From Haladaptatus halobius (GTDB taxonomy: Archaea; Halobacteriota; Halobacteria; Halobacteriales; Haladaptataceae), in NCBI RefSeq assembly GCF_020618475.1, contig NZ_CP085335.1, positions 1,674,001-1,738,000 on the forward strand: DNA of 64,000 nt, written 5' to 3'. Positions 56,393 to 60,978 of the stretch are shown one piece after another (position 1 is the first letter of the stretch; each line of letters opens with the position of its first letter). A model generated the notes under the pieces. The model made no database searches, had not been told where the DNA came from, and saw only the letters and a program-made list of their open reading frames with translations. A program made the translations under genes and the position numbers.

Positions 56393-57238
56393 ATGCACGG
56401 ACGCGCAAAAGCGCCCGCCGCCGGGACGGTGCTCAACGCGCTCGCCACGGGCACCGGATCGGCGTTCGCCATCGACGCCGCCACCACCGCCGACGTGGAA
56501 CTCGACGACTCCGGCGAGGTTCGGGGCGAGGTCGCGAACGCACCGGACGCCGACACCCGACTCGTGGAGCGATGCGCGGAACTCGTCCTCGAAACGCGGG
56601 ACGCCGACTACGGCGCGACTGTTCGTACCGAGAGCGACGTGCCGATGGCCTCCGGTCTGAAGAGTTCGAGCGCCGCCGCGAACGCCACGGTGGTTGCGAC
56701 CCTCGCCGCGCTCGGCGTCGAGATGCCCCGAAAGGACGCCTGCCGCCTCGGCGTGCGGGCGGCCCGCGACGTGGGCGTCACGGTCACGGGAGCCTTCGAC
56801 GACGCCAGCGCGAGCATGCTCGGCGGCGTGACCGTCACCGACAACGAGCGGGACGAACTGCTCACCCGCGAGGAGGTCGAGTGGGACGTGCTGGTCTGGA
56901 CGCCGCCGGAGCGAGCCTTCTCGGCGGACGCGGACGCGTCGCGCTGTCGCCGGGTCGCGCCGATGGCCGACCTTGTCGCCGACCTCGCGCTCGACGGGGA
57001 GTACGGGCGGGCGATGACCGTCAACGGATTCGCATTCTGCGGCGCGCTCGGATTTCCGACCGACCCCTTGCTCGACGCCCTGCCGGACGTTCGGGGCGTC
57101 TCGCTCTCCGGAACCGGCCCGAGTTTCGTCGCGGTCGGCGGGCGGGAGGTTTTAGAGGACGTGCAAGAAAGGTGGGGGACACGGGAGGGAACGACGTGGC
57201 TAACGACGACGCAGACAGACGGAACCCGAACGATATGA
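56393..57238 (+). CDS. Archaeal-type (GHMP) shikimate kinase
   Basis: The 281-residue protein belongs to the GHMP kinases: GRAKAPAAGTVLNALATGTG, VPMASGLKSSSAAANATVVA (ATP-binding glycine/serine loop), and VSLSGTGPSFVAVGG near the end. This is the archaeal shikimate kinase type, unrelated to bacterial AroK. It phosphorylates shikimate in aromatic amino-acid synthesis. It overlaps the chorismate mutase gene by four bases (ATGA), confirming the pathway link. Confidence 0.93.
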   Translation: MHGRAKAPAAGTVLNALATGTGSAFAIDAATTADVELDDSGEVRGEVANAPDADTRLVERCAELVLETRDADYGATVRTESDVPMASGLKSSSAAANATVVATLAALGVEMPRKDACRLGVRAARDVGVTVTGAFDDASASMLGGVTVTDNERDELLTREEVEWDVLVWTPPERAFSADADASRCRRVAPMADLVADLALDGEYGRAMTVNGFAFCGALGFPTDPLLDALPDVRGVSLSGTGPSFVAVGGREVLEDVQERWGTREGTTWLTTTQTDGTRTI

Positions 57239-57501
57239 CGCTCGCAGAGCTACGCGAAGAGATAGAATCCATCGACCGCGAGATAGTCGAACTCATCGCC
57301 CGCCGAACCTACGTCGCCGAGACGGTGGCGCAGGTGAAAGCGGCCGAGGACATCCCGACGACCGACGAATCGCAGGAACAGCGCGTGATGGACAGGGCGG
57401 GGGAGAACGCCGAGCAGTTCGACGTGGATTCGAATCTAGTGAAGGCCATCTTCCGGTTGTTGATAGAACTGAACAAGGTGGAGCAACGGGAAAGCAGGTA
57501 G
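57235..57501 (+). CDS. Chorismate mutase (AroQ type)
   Basis: The 88-residue protein has LAELREEIESIDREIVELIARR, ETVAQVKAAEDIPT, and IFRLLIELNKVEQRESR, the all-helical AroQ mutase pattern with catalytic Arg, Lys and Glu residues on the three helices. It converts chorismate to prephenate. The gene is last in the shikimate kinase operon. Its 3' end (57469-57499) is repeated 1.76 kb downstream at 59227-59257 with two synonymous differences. Confidence 0.93.
   Translation: MTLAELREEIESIDREIVELIARRTYVAETVAQVKAAEDIPTTDESQEQRVMDRAGENAEQFDVDSNLVKAIFRLLIELNKVEQRESR
57469..57499. repeat. 31-bp direct repeat, left copy (3' end of chorismate mutase)
   Basis: This sequence encodes LNKVEQRESR of chorismate mutase. 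It matches 59227-59257 at 29 of 31 positions. The two mismatches are CAA/CAG and CGG/CGA, silent in this frame. Confidence 0.85.
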
Positions 57502-57630
57502 CCGAATCTGGACGTTTCAGCCCTCTATTGGCGGTCGGCCAGTCAGATCTTCTTCCGGCAGTTGCGCTTTCCGTTGTTGCTAGCTGAGCGAAACAAAATA
57601 CTATCAAGAGAGTAATCACTGAGCATACAA

Positions 57631-57753
57631 CTAGCAGTTCCATGAACCTACTTGCAGTACGATGGATTTCCACTTCAGCAACACGAATCCCACTGAGATT
57701 ACGAGAAATCCGACGAAGGAGAGTAGTTCGAGCGGCTCACCGAGGACCAGCCA
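57631..57753 (-). pseudogene. C-terminal fragment of an EamA/DMT-type transporter
   Basis: The frame read on the minus strand contains WLVLGEPLELLSFVGFLVIS and GFVLLKWKSIV, which is the last helix pair of EamA-type transporters (WxxLGEPL...GxxLIxxGF). The beginning of the gene is absent; the piece is joined directly to the truncated regulator gene at about 57753. It is a leftover of a recombination event. Confidence 0.65.
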
Positions 57754-58414
57754 CCCCGAGCTCGTCGGCGAGGTCACTGGCCGTCGCCGATTTCGGATGT
57801 GCGTAGTACCCAGATTCACGAGCCAGTTGGAACACTTCCCGCTGGCGAGGGGACAACCGCGATAGCGGAAGCTCACCCAATTCAGGGCGGGCGTTCACTT
57901 CCGAAATCCCGACGAGTTCGATCTTTGCGGCCTCCAGATTACGAACCTCGTCTAGGGCCGTCTCGATGGCGTGTCGGTCGTTGTGGGTTAAAAGCGGCCA
58001 GTGTTCGACTCCCTCTCGAATATCCACCGGTGCGCCGTAGACGAACCCTCTAGCTGTGAACGCGTCGCTCACCTGCTGGGTAGGGTCGTGTTCGACCAGC
58101 AGCTCGCGGCTAGCGTTTCCGGGGACGACTGGAGTAGCGTATTCACGCCCGTATGTCATCTCAGACACCGAGAACGGGTGGCCAGACGCACGCGCGACTT
58201 CGACCGCCTCATCGAGTTCGGCGCTTTTGTCCCCGAAGAGAGTTACGTGGCTGTTGGCTCGTCGGTCAGCAGTGTGGTATACACCGCGTCCGAGGATTCC
58301 GACCTCGACCTCGGAGGAGAGCTCGATGAGCCAACACTCGGGATGGCGGACGGCCAGGTCTACCCGGAGCGCTGCGCCCTGACTTCGAGCGTCACTTGAC
58401 GGTGATTCGCTCAT
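57737..58414 (-). pseudogene. Truncated bacterio-opsin-activator-type (HTH-10) regulator
   Basis: The 225-residue frame has the haloarchaeal HTH-10 layout: an N-terminal sensor-like domain (RVDLAVRHPECWLIELSSEVE to HWPLLTHNDRHAIETALDE) and the start of the HTH, LSPRQREVFQLARESGYYAH and SATASDLADELGV. At Gly-Val the recognition helix should continue with about 30 residues, but the sequence changes to AGPR and stops. The change point coincides with the start of the transporter fragment in another frame, so the gene has lost its 3' end. It overlaps the hisH stop by 23 bases. Confidence 0.75.
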
Positions 58415-59036
58415 CTTGGTACTCTCGGGCGTAGTTGACGAAGTTCTGGAGGATTCGGAGACCGAGTTCCCCGCTCTTCTCGGGGTGGAACTGGGTCCCC
58501 ATCACATTCCCTGCTTCGTTCGCTACGATGGCGGCGAAGTCGAATCCGTAGTCACAGGACGCTATCGTGTGGTAGGCCACTCTCGATTCGTACGAGTGGA
58601 CGAAGTACGCATAGTCCCCGTCTTCGATACCGTCAACGAGTTGGTGGTCCCGCTCGACCGTGAGTTCGTTCCAACCCATATGCGGTACCTTCACCTCGTG
58701 GTTGGGAAGTCGTTCGACACGACCCGGAATCAGATCGAGGCCGTCGATGGTTTCGCCGTCGGGTGCACCCTCCGTACTCTCGGTGAACATGAGTTGGAGC
58801 CCGACGCAGATGCCGAGAATGGGCGTCTCCTCGGCAGCCTTGACGAGAACGTCGTGGAAGGGTTCGGAGTTGCGAACGCACTCGCCGAACGCGCCAACGC
58901 CAAGGAGAACGAGCGCTTCGGCGGCAGCGATCTCTTCGGGATCGTCGGACATCGTCACCGTCGCGTCAGCTCGTTCGAGCCCGCGCTGAAGACTATGGAG
59001 GTTGCCGACCCCGTAATCGATAATGGGGACTTCCAT
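58392..59036 (-). CDS. hisH: Imidazole glycerol phosphate synthase glutaminase subunit HisH (isolated copy)
   Basis: The 214-residue protein has PIIDYGVGNLHSLQRGLER, GVGAFGECVRNSE, the amidotransferase elbow LGICVGLQLMF with C77, and QFHPEKSGELG with H184 and E186, the Cys-His-Glu triad. It supplies ammonia to HisF for histidine synthesis. The usual PGVGAF reads LGVGAF here. No other his gene is nearby. It lies in the segment between the two chorismate-mutase repeats and looks AT-richer than its surroundings, so it is probably a transferred or surplus copy, though it seems intact. Confidence 0.92.
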   Translation of the reverse strand: MEVPIIDYGVGNLHSLQRGLERADATVTMSDDPEEIAAAEALVLLGVGAFGECVRNSEPFHDVLVKAAEETPILGICVGLQLMFTESTEGAPDGETIDGLDLIPGRVERLPNHEVKVPHMGWNELTVERDHQLVDGIEDGDYAYFVHSYESRVAYHTIASCDYGFDFAAIVANEAGNVMGTQFHPEKSGELGLRILQNFVNYAREYQDERITVK

Positions 59037-59582
59037 ATTCGGATTTCGTAACCTCTGGTTATATGGCTTCACATACGTCGAAGGGAATAGGCACGGTCCA
59101 CTTCGTTAACTCCCACTACCCCATTTATATACTCGCTCGAGTGAGGGGCTGAAAAGCCCTAAAACAGGACTTTCATGACTGATTAAACTGTATTTTTCGG
59201 ACCAATCCGTTACGGATTTCACCTATCTGAACAAGGTGGAGCAGCGAGAAAGCAGGTGGCGAACACCGCAGTTAGAGACGATATACCACCGATTGAATCT
59301 AACGTCCCTTCGATGGTCGGCCGGGAGCGAGTGGAATCCGGCCTCGGCGAAGCGGGCTACTCGAATTTCGAGTTCGAAACCGGAGAAGCCGCCGTGCCGA
59401 GTCTTTCCGGGTCGTGGCTCGTGAGGAAAATCGAACGAAAAGAGATCGAAGCGAGCCAACCTTCCGCATCCGTGGAAGTTCCTCGATTCAGTTCCGTCCT
59501 TCTCCGCGGCCCTGACGCTTCAACCGGCCGACCTGGTCTCCGTCCGGGTAACGACAGCACGAATCGAATCGCGGACGGGAAA
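59037..59582. other. Intergenic region with right repeat and AT-rich promoter-like part
   Basis: About 545 bp. 59050-59220 is AT-rich and has GGGCT-GAAA-AGCCC followed by TAAAA, a small hairpin. The second copy of the chorismate mutase 3' end is at 59227-59257. Past that, the + strand from about 59313 reads as possible coding text (GLGEAGYSNFEFETGE), but no complete gene can be supported. Confidence 0.45.
59227..59257. repeat. 31-bp direct repeat, right copy
   Basis: It reads LNKVEQRESR in the same frame as the chorismate mutase end but continues TGG instead of the TAG stop. The two differences from the left copy are synonymous. It marks the right edge of the 1.73-kb segment that holds hisH and the truncated regulator. 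Confidence 0.85.
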
Positions 59583-60053
59583 CTACTGAAGCCGCTTTTC
59601 CATGACGATTTCGTCGTACCGGCGATTCTCCAGCGGATACTCGCCCGTCTTCTCGTATCCGCGACGCCGATAAAACCCGGGAAGATATGGATGCTTTTCG
59701 GGCGTCGTAAGCCAGACGGTAGTGTGGCTGCGATTCCGAACTGCTTCCTCCGCGTGATCCATCAACCGACCACCGATACCTTTCCCTTTCTGACTCTCGT
59801 GAACGCCGAGTCGGCTGAGCTTTACGCGAGCAGAATCCGTCGCTTCGAGTCGAACGCCGCCGACCACTTCGTCATCGATTTCGGCGACGTAGACCTGGCG
59901 CTTCCAAATCCAGTCCGCGACCTCACTTCTCGTCACGGATTCCGCTTTGGCGGGAAATCCGAGTCGACGGTTCTCCCGATACGCGCTTCGATACACCTGC
60001 GTGAGCTTTTCGGCGTCGGTGACGGTAGCGCGCCGAATTTGCGGTTCGGTCAT
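59583..60053 (-). CDS. GNAT-family N-acetyltransferase
   Basis: The 156-residue protein has IRRATVTDAEKLTQVYRSAY, a central VYVAEIDDEVVGGVRLEAT strand, the acetyl-CoA loop VHESQKGKGIGGRLMDHAEEAV (Q/RxxGxG/A pattern), and the end FYRRRGYEKTGEYPL. It should acetylate an amine or a protein N-terminus; the target is unknown. It is the first intact gene after the repeat-bounded segment. Confidence 0.9.
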   Translation of the reverse strand: MTEPQIRRATVTDAEKLTQVYRSAYRENRRLGFPAKAESVTRSEVADWIWKRQVYVAEIDDEVVGGVRLEATDSARVKLSRLGVHESQKGKGIGGRLMDHAEEAVRNRSHTTVWLTTPEKHPYLPGFYRRRGYEKTGEYPLENRRYDEIVMEKRLQ

Positions 60054-60157: not shown

Positions 60158-60838
60158 TCAGTATTCCCAGAGTCGCTCGATACGCGAGTCGATCTCCGGA
60201 TGTTCGTCCCGCAGAATCTCGACGTCCGTTTCACCGTCGACGTTGATGACGTGGACGTCCCCACGCCGCCCGGAGTAAACGTCCTGAAAGTCGTACACGA
60301 CGCCGATAACGTCGACTTCGCGGGGAATCTCGTCGCTCTCCACGAGAAACTCGACCTGCCTATCGACGTTGTACTCCACGAGACGATTCACGGCCTCCGT
60401 TCGGCTCGCGTCCGAGGGGAGCGATTCGACGCCCGCTTCGAGGTGCGGCTTCAACAATTCGAGACAGTGGGCGATGCCCGCGGGCTCGGAAATCCCGCCC
60501 GTCAGGTCGTCGTACGTCGCCGTAACGGCTCCGCACCCCGTGTGGCCGACGACGACGACGGTTTCGGTTCCCGTGTGCTCGACCGGATAGAGGACGTCGC
60601 CCGAGACCACGTCGCCGGATTCGGTTCGCTGGACGACGCGGTTTCCGATGTTGCCACACGTGAAGATTCGCCCGGGTACGTCGTTCCCCCAGATGCGGTC
60701 TTGCAGGACGCGAGAGTCCGAGCAACAGACGGTAACCGCGTCCGGCCGTTGGGCGTCTTGCACCTCGTCAAATCGGGACTGAAACTCGCTCGCGTGTTCC
60801 GAATTGTTCCGTAACAGTTCGATGAACGTCGCATGCAT
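60158..60838 (-). CDS. Beta-class carbonic anhydrase
   Basis: From ATG 60838 (an upstream frame adds eight residues of doubtful value) the 226-residue protein has VTVCCSDSRVLQDRIWGN with the zinc Cys C39 and the D41/R43 dyad, and VVVVGHTGCGAVTA with H99 and C102. It interconverts CO2 and bicarbonate. The helix-rich N-terminus and the IPREVDVIGVVYDFQ stretch match the family. Confidence 0.93.
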   Translation of the reverse strand: MHATFIELLRNNSEHASEFQSRFDEVQDAQRPDAVTVCCSDSRVLQDRIWGNDVPGRIFTCGNIGNRVVQRTESGDVVSGDVLYPVEHTGTETVVVVGHTGCGAVTATYDDLTGGISEPAGIAHCLELLKPHLEAGVESLPSDASRTEAVNRLVEYNVDRQVEFLVESDEIPREVDVIGVVYDFQDVYSGRRGDVHVINVDGETDVEILRDEHPEIDSRIERLWEY

Positions 60839-60978
60839 AGTTGTGCAGAAACGCTCCGTCAAATATAGTCATCGGTTCTACCGCGAGTACGGAATCCGAT
60901 CGACGGTTCGGCTGCCATCGACACCGCCTCGACGGACTCGGTGCGTGAACAGCGAGAGCTATGACGATGTCTTGTCGA

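Follow-up and report, generated by a model that had tools for sequence, protein, structure and literature searches.

A probable mobile gene cassette behind the chorismate mutase gene of Haladaptatus halobius and related cassette arrays in Halobacteria

We have analysed a stretch of 64,000 nucleotides from contig NZ_CP085335.1 of Haladaptatus halobius (hereafter the window, whose first letter is position 1), in which a small island of genes lies between the end of the chorismate mutase gene and a second copy of that end. In our view this island is probably a mobile gene cassette that entered by site-specific recombination, a core of about 33 bp on the cassette having recombined with the 3΄ end of chorismate mutase. 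At the level of DNA sequence, our comparisons within the window and across the class Halobacteria show the direct repeats and their single orientation, the conserved ends of the elements, a zone of exchange, the transfer of cassettes as units and the arrays that they form.

The direct repeat and its island

The last bases of the chorismate mutase gene (57469–57502) recur at 59227–59260, with 31 of 34 bases equal and a start-to-start spacing of 1758. Base comparison confirmed what a preliminary description of this DNA had reported, namely that 29 of the first 31 bases agree and that both mismatches (CAA/CAG and CGG/CGA) are synonymous; the right copy has lost the stop codon (TAG to TGG) and translates as LNKVEQRESRW. 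As a measure of chance, 30 of 33 bases agree here, against 21 of 33 in the next-best 33-base match in the window on either strand, and a pattern search of the genome allowing up to three mismatches found these two places only, with none in the reversed control. The island has a G+C content of 57.2%, compared with 64.5 and 61.1% in its flanks. The features of the locus are the following.

57235–57501, + strand: chorismate mutase gene, 88 aa, the target; read in frame, 95% identity (residues 1–88) to Haladaptatus salinisoli
57469–57501, + strand: left core (attL), the last 33 nt of the gene; from the repeat comparison, the genome search and the locus scan
57502–57585, + strand: left element end, type L1, with CTTCCGGCAGTTGC at 57552–57565 (50 nt past the core); from the exact motif match and the left-end alignment, the outer limit (57585) being approximate
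57737–58414, − strand: cargo, HTH_10 regulator truncated in its C-terminal DNA-binding domain; Pfam PF04967, profile positions 1–36 of 53
58392–59036, − strand: cargo, HisH-type glutamine amidotransferase with no internal stop; Pfam GATase
59203–59226, + strand: right element end, type A, CAATCCGTTACGGATTTCACCTAT; from the right-end alignment
59227–59259, + strand: right core (attR), probably a displaced copy of the gene 3΄ end, stop codon lost
59583–60053, − strand: GNAT acetyltransferase in the right flank, present in the sister species too; Pfam
60158–60862, − strand: carbonic-anhydrase-like gene (a name that we assume), conserved right-hand landmark of the locus

Both the hisH gene, with its uninterrupted frame, and the truncated HTH-10 regulator had been named in the preliminary description and are borne out by their Pfam matches; the "transporter fragment" that it had placed beside them was not recovered, the open reading frame (ORF) at 57631–57876 being without any Pfam match. 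The HisH-type gene shares 73–81% identity with genes in six relatives, compared with 58% for the other hisH of its own genome; five of these six genomes hold a second match, and none of the related genes lies within about 1.5 kb of a core. Presumably the gene may belong to a sugar-modification pathway. The window cassette, made up of the HisH-type gene and the broken regulator, is non-toxin cargo and is partly decayed.

Aligned with the corresponding locus of the sister species H. salinisoli (L003), the window shows an identity of 93.4% in a stretch of 589 nt that ends at base 20 of the left core. The two align again from 59216, inside the right end, and on into the right flank, at 75–77%. The cargo of the window has no match in the sister locus, and the two sister species carry different DNA at one site. 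The empty site for which a relative was to be searched did not turn up in the sister, whose site is occupied by this different DNA and a decayed second copy, and no flank-identical empty site was found among the relatives, in which two of the loci without a second core (L056 and L159) may be empty sites. In the genus and its near relatives, the order of chorismate mutase and the carbonic-anhydrase-like gene is kept in 15 of 17 loci (the window included), the latter gene not being found within 6 kb in the other two, and the interval between them runs from about 0.9 kb (L056) to 8.4 kb (L164).

The right copy had been read as the allele of a foreign strain. The direction is probably the reverse, and the 3΄ half of the right copy is most likely the old end of the host gene, because the sister has a related GAGCAGCGAGAAAGC copy before the same right flank; the part travelling with the cassette would be the 3΄ half that the gene has at present. 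The decayed right copy of the sister (CTG..GAGGTGGAGCAGCGAGAAAGC) resembles the right copy of the window, and both are consistent with being old gene ends that were displaced. The match to the sister breaks off within the core, from which we infer that the last ~16 bases of the chorismate mutase gene in the window arrived with the cassette; the encoded proteins end in LNKVEQRESR in the window and in LNKVEQRNQR in the sister.

Cassette arrays across the Halobacteria

The proposal of an att-type event, in which the island entered the 3΄ end of a protein-coding gene and left that gene whole on the left, is supported, and the same site is used across the class. We took the best 80 of 274 chorismate mutase loci in publicly available genomes and metagenome bins of haloarchaea, together with loci of the genus. 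Downstream of the gene in 89 loci, the window among them, we searched with a weight matrix built from its last 33 nt, at a cut-off of 8 bits. Further downstream copies of the core occur in 45 of the 89 loci, one to three in each and 66 in total, all on the strand of the gene; on the reverse strand and in the reversed-letter control of the same scan none exceeded 5 bits. Some of these loci are entered twice: L084, L086, L088 and L089 repeat L003, L012, L010 and L004 in shorter form, and from each of two species there are two contigs. The downstream reach was 6 kb in most loci, 1.5 kb in the eight loci of the genus and less in a few, and some copies of the core will therefore have been missed. 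In an even draw of 145 genomes, scored with a site model of 60 positions, 72 hold at least two sites, 71 hold one and two hold none, counts to which a second chorismate mutase copy can add (as in G011). The longest row consists of four downstream sites (G421), and the arrays that were placed span up to about 11 kb among the matches listed.

The same arrays are found on three plasmids that bear a chorismate mutase gene (NZ_CP119800, NZ_CP084320 and NZ_CP031307; L094, L095 and L096). These Natrialbaceae plasmids, of 162–402 kb, carry shikimate kinase, chorismate mutase and a cassette array, which in NZ_CP084320 runs in the order PIN, PIN/AbrB, PIN/AbrB and VapC/VapB genes. The target gene itself apparently can be duplicated or moved. 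A second pair of shikimate kinase and chorismate mutase lies within the array of one locus (L064:9411–10588), and in one genome (G011) chorismate mutase genes occur on two contigs, one on each (L097 and L109).

The downstream copies keep the core and not the gene body that precedes it in the target: bases −60 to −32 hold 0.01–0.26 bits there, against 0.73–1.96 bits in the gene. Before the downstream cores there is mostly one of two sequences, type A (GTATTATGGATTTCAGCTAC) or type B (CGGCAAAGTAGACGGAATCTGTAACATCAGTCTGAGAC). When ten loci, duplicate or short, had been set aside and the same-species pair L019/L021 kept, splitting at the cores in 61 loci gave 98 cassettes; their right ends are A-like in 65, B-like in 20 and neither in 13 (thus A or B in 85 of 98), by a limit of at least 13 of 24 bases that 14 of 5000 random stretches pass, and with a consensus drawn from the same sites. 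Types A and B are common to unrelated cargo, the window having type A, and such conserved right ends on unrelated cargo suggest a role in protein binding. At the other end, the motif CTTCCGGCAGTTGC stands 50–52 nt past the core in some unrelated cassettes, and is exact in the window; chosen after looking at the data, it occurs with up to two mismatches in 16 of 202 left ends, compared with 5 of 3000 random windows. When 292 genomes were searched for a 26-base form of this end (up to three mismatches), it was present in 13, at one place each, and all 13 places lie 44–52 nt 3΄ of a core, which belongs to the gene in ten cases and to an ectopic site or one inside an array in the other three; four of these 13 genomes (G011, G043, G061 and G150) had fed the discovery set. 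The left-end block also resembles the coding stretch of chorismate mutase right before the core (CTTCCGGCTGCTG; CTTCCGG at −19), and judging by this likeness the target gene might offer a second site for protein binding there.

The cassettes are short, with a median length of 962 bp and quartiles of 747 and 1337 (n = 98). Single-linkage grouping, with names taken from representative ORFs, placed 29 in a mazEF/ParE-type group, 24 in a VapBC/PIN group and 6 in a second VapBC group, and left 31 singletons. An ORF from a cluster that we assign to the toxin–antitoxin class is present in 55 of the 98 cassettes (median length of such cassettes, 801 bp), and in 47 there is one whose cluster has a toxin domain named by Pfam (PIN, PemK or ParE); these counts are approximate, the ORFs having been filtered for acidic composition and several antitoxin-like partners without a Pfam match having been classed by position. 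Among the other cargo are genes for permease, E1-E2 ATPase, methyltransferase and regulator proteins, and the annotation adds cupin and copper-binding proteins. Cargo proteins from 69 of the 81 cluster representatives were compared with PADLOC and, by alignment, with Pfam: PADLOC returned 12 families, none of them matched by more than three proteins, and the Pfam alignments covered the 25 commonest of 106 families and are no test for integrases.

Movement of the cassettes and rival explanations

Cassettes of about 750 bp recur as discrete units at 92–96% identity. In 301 of 327 pairs the identity is higher in the cassettes than in the shikimate kinase/chorismate mutase DNA next to them, with a median difference of 7.4 points (for instance 96.1% against 79.1%, or 94.3% against 70.1%); a further 19 of the 346 pairs had no upstream alignment of sufficient length, and rates may differ between genes. 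In 33 pairs of cassettes that are at least 90% identical and occupy different or internal array positions, the left neighbours are at most 52% alike in 30, the three exceptions having the same kind of left neighbour (a mazEF cassette or the chorismate mutase gene), and past the right core 2 of 40 pairs reach 60%. Since the neighbours are unrelated both to the left and to the right, the junctions lie at the core on both sides. In 13 further pairs the cassette is first in the array in both genomes, and the neighbour, which is the gene, is 73–98% alike. On the evidence of these alignments, cassettes have moved between species one by one.

The core itself carries a record of the exchange. In 59 and 135 pairs of related cassettes, the variable bases of the left core track the cassette from base 17 onwards (an excess of +0.30 relative to random pairs), with at most +0.15 at earlier positions (base 0), and the right core tracks it at base 14 (+0.31) and base 10 (+0.14), and little at base 17 (+0.09). 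From these associations we conclude that strand exchange would take place inside the core, roughly at bases 10–17 (CTGAACAAGGTNGARCA), so that each insertion would give the gene new last codons.

We propose that the core of about 33 bp on a cassette recombines with the 3΄ end of chorismate mutase and that the strands are exchanged within the core, at about bases 10–17; the host gene would thereby trade its last ~16 bases for cassette bases that specify identical or almost identical residues, and its former end would come to lie on the far side of the cassette. By repetition of this reaction, cassettes would stack in the same orientation behind the gene. A tyrosine-type recombinase could carry out the reaction in trans, encoded in another part of the genome or on a helper element, and a circular intermediate is probable. 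Toxin–antitoxin cargo may dominate because it resists loss.

No integrase was seen in the window island by its ORFs or by Pfam, and the genome of the window has no Phage_integrase match within 100 kb of the site. This part of the preliminary description stood; the decayed or passively moved element that it envisaged is not a lone relic but one cassette of an array system. Elsewhere in the genome, Phage_integrase matches occur in all 26 array genomes tested, among the matches listed.

Several results weigh against site-specific recombination as proposed here, and some of them concern its enzyme. A hidden Markov model (HMM) of 30 relatives of one haloarchaeal integrase matches at only 1 of 131 loci, which comprise loci with and without arrays, some of them overlapping, and this model could miss other integrase families. 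The match (L058) is a provirus-like gene 1.2 kb beyond the array, with no further site beyond it in that genome; it lies outside the array, is not bounded by a core, and was rejected as the enzyme of the array. A second candidate, a tyrosine integrase of 385 aa (2238743–2239897), adjoins an ectopic site at 2240215–2240272 in G030 (L126, G030:C1:2229000–2247999), far from that genome's own chorismate mutase array (sites at C1:3005489 and 3006229) and beside a gene that we take to be rfcL-like. It was also set aside, the neighbourhood of site and integrase being probably a coincidence, because none of the 29 relatives of this integrase that were fetched (about 4 kb each, the best 43% identical) is near a core. 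Sites with a whole core and an element end, and without chorismate mutase in the fetched stretch, are present at L098:6934–6966, L099:7258–7290 (a contig of 283 kb), L100:7319–7351 and in L170, three of these four beside toxin–antitoxin genes or remnants; the ectopic sites keep the whole core, unlike what simple secondary-site integration would lead one to expect. No excised circle was seen. The left-end motif is present in a minority of cassettes, 13 of 98 with up to two mismatches and 21 of 98 with up to four, and most cassettes therefore lack it or have lost it. The cassette pairs that were compared are not independent. Finally, the wobble bases 8 and 11 of the right core show no excess (−0.06 and −0.03), and the right core tracks the cassette weakly past the exchange zone, at bases 25 and 31 (+0.19 and +0.16), so that the exchange point is not mapped to the base.

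It is unlikely that the cassettes are instead independent relics, comparable to cis-mobilizable elements (CIMEs), of larger viruses or integrative plasmids that use this attB, that is, deletion derivatives that kept their att ends and were stacked by accretion. Elements of this kind are known at the 3΄ ends of housekeeping genes in streptococci, where, by the account in PMC7563491, they occur in tandem and include microCIMEs of 130–220 bp, and the longer conserved ends of the haloarchaeal cassettes resemble the arms of an attP. A larger element with an integrase, bounded by this site, had been expected in other genomes; none was found among the matches listed, where the arrays stay within the span given above, and the one related integrase near a locus is not core-bounded. 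In viral contigs the patterns of the core, the right end and the left end gave no match and 50,697 phage records gave none either, the haloarchaeal share of the virus and plasmid sets being uncounted; a looser core pattern gave one match in the viral contigs, a chance one in a phage gene, and was discarded as a pointer to a viral source. Moreover, the same cassettes of about 750 bp recur discretely and not as varied deletions.

We regard as rather improbable an origin without any dedicated recombinase, in which DNA passed from cell to cell would enter by homologous recombination, with the long homology of shikimate kinase and chorismate mutase on one side and the 33-bp core on the other. Gene exchange between haloarchaeal species is known, the core is inherently homologous to the gene end of the recipient, some first-position pairs share flanks (L049 and L053 are 98% alike in the 99 nt before the core), and the many cassettes without the left-end motif would fit such an origin as well. 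It does not sit easily with the conserved right ends on unrelated cargo, nor with the entry of the same cassette into arrays beside unrelated neighbours on both sides, where the core alone is shared; in 9 of the 13 first-position pairs, moreover, the 99 nt before the core are 73–83% alike and the cassette more than 90%, the other four pairs being 91–98% alike in those 99 nt. A repeat made by tandem duplication of the gene's end, or by gene conversion, and later invaded by unrelated genes would find a parallel in the true second shikimate kinase and chorismate mutase pair of one array (L064) and is highly improbable, being contradicted by conservation that stops before the gene body and by copies in one orientation, most of them bounded by conserved ends of their own.

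Comparison with known systems

Site-specific cassette arrays as such already exist in bacteria, whose integron arrays are also rich in toxin–antitoxin cassettes. Like integrons, the haloarchaeal arrays consist of small cassettes in tandem between direct recombination sites, shuffled and shared across species and often with no adjoining integrase; their sites are alike in orientation (66 forward, 0 reverse), and their cassettes appear to move individually. According to PMC9668308, integron cassette arrays include clusters of attC sites without an integrase (CALINs), and integrons are reported in Archaea; the words 'Halobacter' and 'haloarchaea' are absent from its main text. The integron integrase IntI (TIGR02249) was above the cut-off in none of 27 genomes, weak matches (E ≤ 0.001) occurring in 22 of them and also in 14 of 14 control genomes, and for an attC-like fold RNAalifold predicted 0 pairs on 58 sites, a limited test in which RNA energies were used. 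Unlike integrons, the haloarchaeal arrays have their primary site in a housekeeping gene, at its 3΄ end, and insertion replaces the last codons of that gene. By the tests made, the haloarchaeal system is not an integron.

Archaeal viruses and plasmids integrate at the 3΄ ends of tRNA genes and regenerate the 3΄ end of their target. Similarly, insertion at chorismate mutase regenerates the end of the target: a direct repeat of the gene end stands at the far side, and the gene is open with its usual ending. In contrast to integration at tRNA genes, insertion here affects a gene that encodes a protein and involves far smaller elements, and no integrase was found in them, neither in the window island nor in the 131 loci, where the single match is outside the array.

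The pdif sites that bound bacterial dif modules alternate in orientation, an alternation that the downstream sites scored in the haloarchaeal arrays do not show. The dif modules of Acinetobacter, as described in PMC6449649 and PMC13141974, are likewise small and often toxin–antitoxin units, attributed to the host Xer acting at short sites; they differ in comprising two kinds, C and D, between pdif sites, whereas the 66 haloarchaeal sites share one orientation behind one gene. The CIMEs of Streptococcus at fda, rpsI and rpmG, on the account given in PMC7563491, are flanked by att sites, lack recombination genes and are stacked behind a housekeeping gene. The haloarchaeal cassettes similarly have att sites at a gene 3΄ end and no recombination genes inside, by a test for relatives of one integrase family. 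No autonomous partner element was found for them in the viral contigs, phage records and array loci searched; they differ from the CIMEs in that their cargo is often a single toxin–antitoxin operon and that they extend over a whole archaeal class.

No description of such arrays was found in the open-access literature, a search outside whose scope lay most subscription papers and preprints and whose broader part went by titles and the starts of abstracts; a class-wide haloarchaeal system of cassette arrays is apparently undescribed so far. We see an even chance that the Halobacteria possess a cassette-capture system of their own, an integron counterpart of independent origin, in which the 3΄ end of chorismate mutase would be the primary attachment site and its last codons would be rewritten with each insertion, a dedicated or co-opted recombinase, differing from IntI in the site that it uses, would act in trans, toxin–antitoxin cassettes would stabilise the arrays and adaptive genes would ride along. 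Arrays of small cassettes of this kind are known mainly from bacterial integrons, and a class-wide array in haloarchaea, confined to one defined site and with many toxin–antitoxin cassettes, would explain the spread and the build-up of such genes in these genomes. The chorismate mutase site would also serve as a genetic tool, being a natural landing pad in a conserved gene. A concrete question is now posed, namely which enzyme moves the haloarchaeal cassettes; with its site, ends and exchange zone described, the system has become open to such a test. Naming the enzyme could set the system further apart from the known kinds.

The genome of the window (G000) measures 7.28 Mb, with an estimated contamination of 9.5%, and the other eight genomes of the genus 3.9–6.3 Mb; extra replicons or a mixed assembly are possible reasons for its size. 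In three Halorubrum loci (L042, L049 and L053), a mazF-like gene in the opposite reading direction ends about 2 bp past the chorismate mutase stop codon, and the 3΄ ends of the two genes almost meet.

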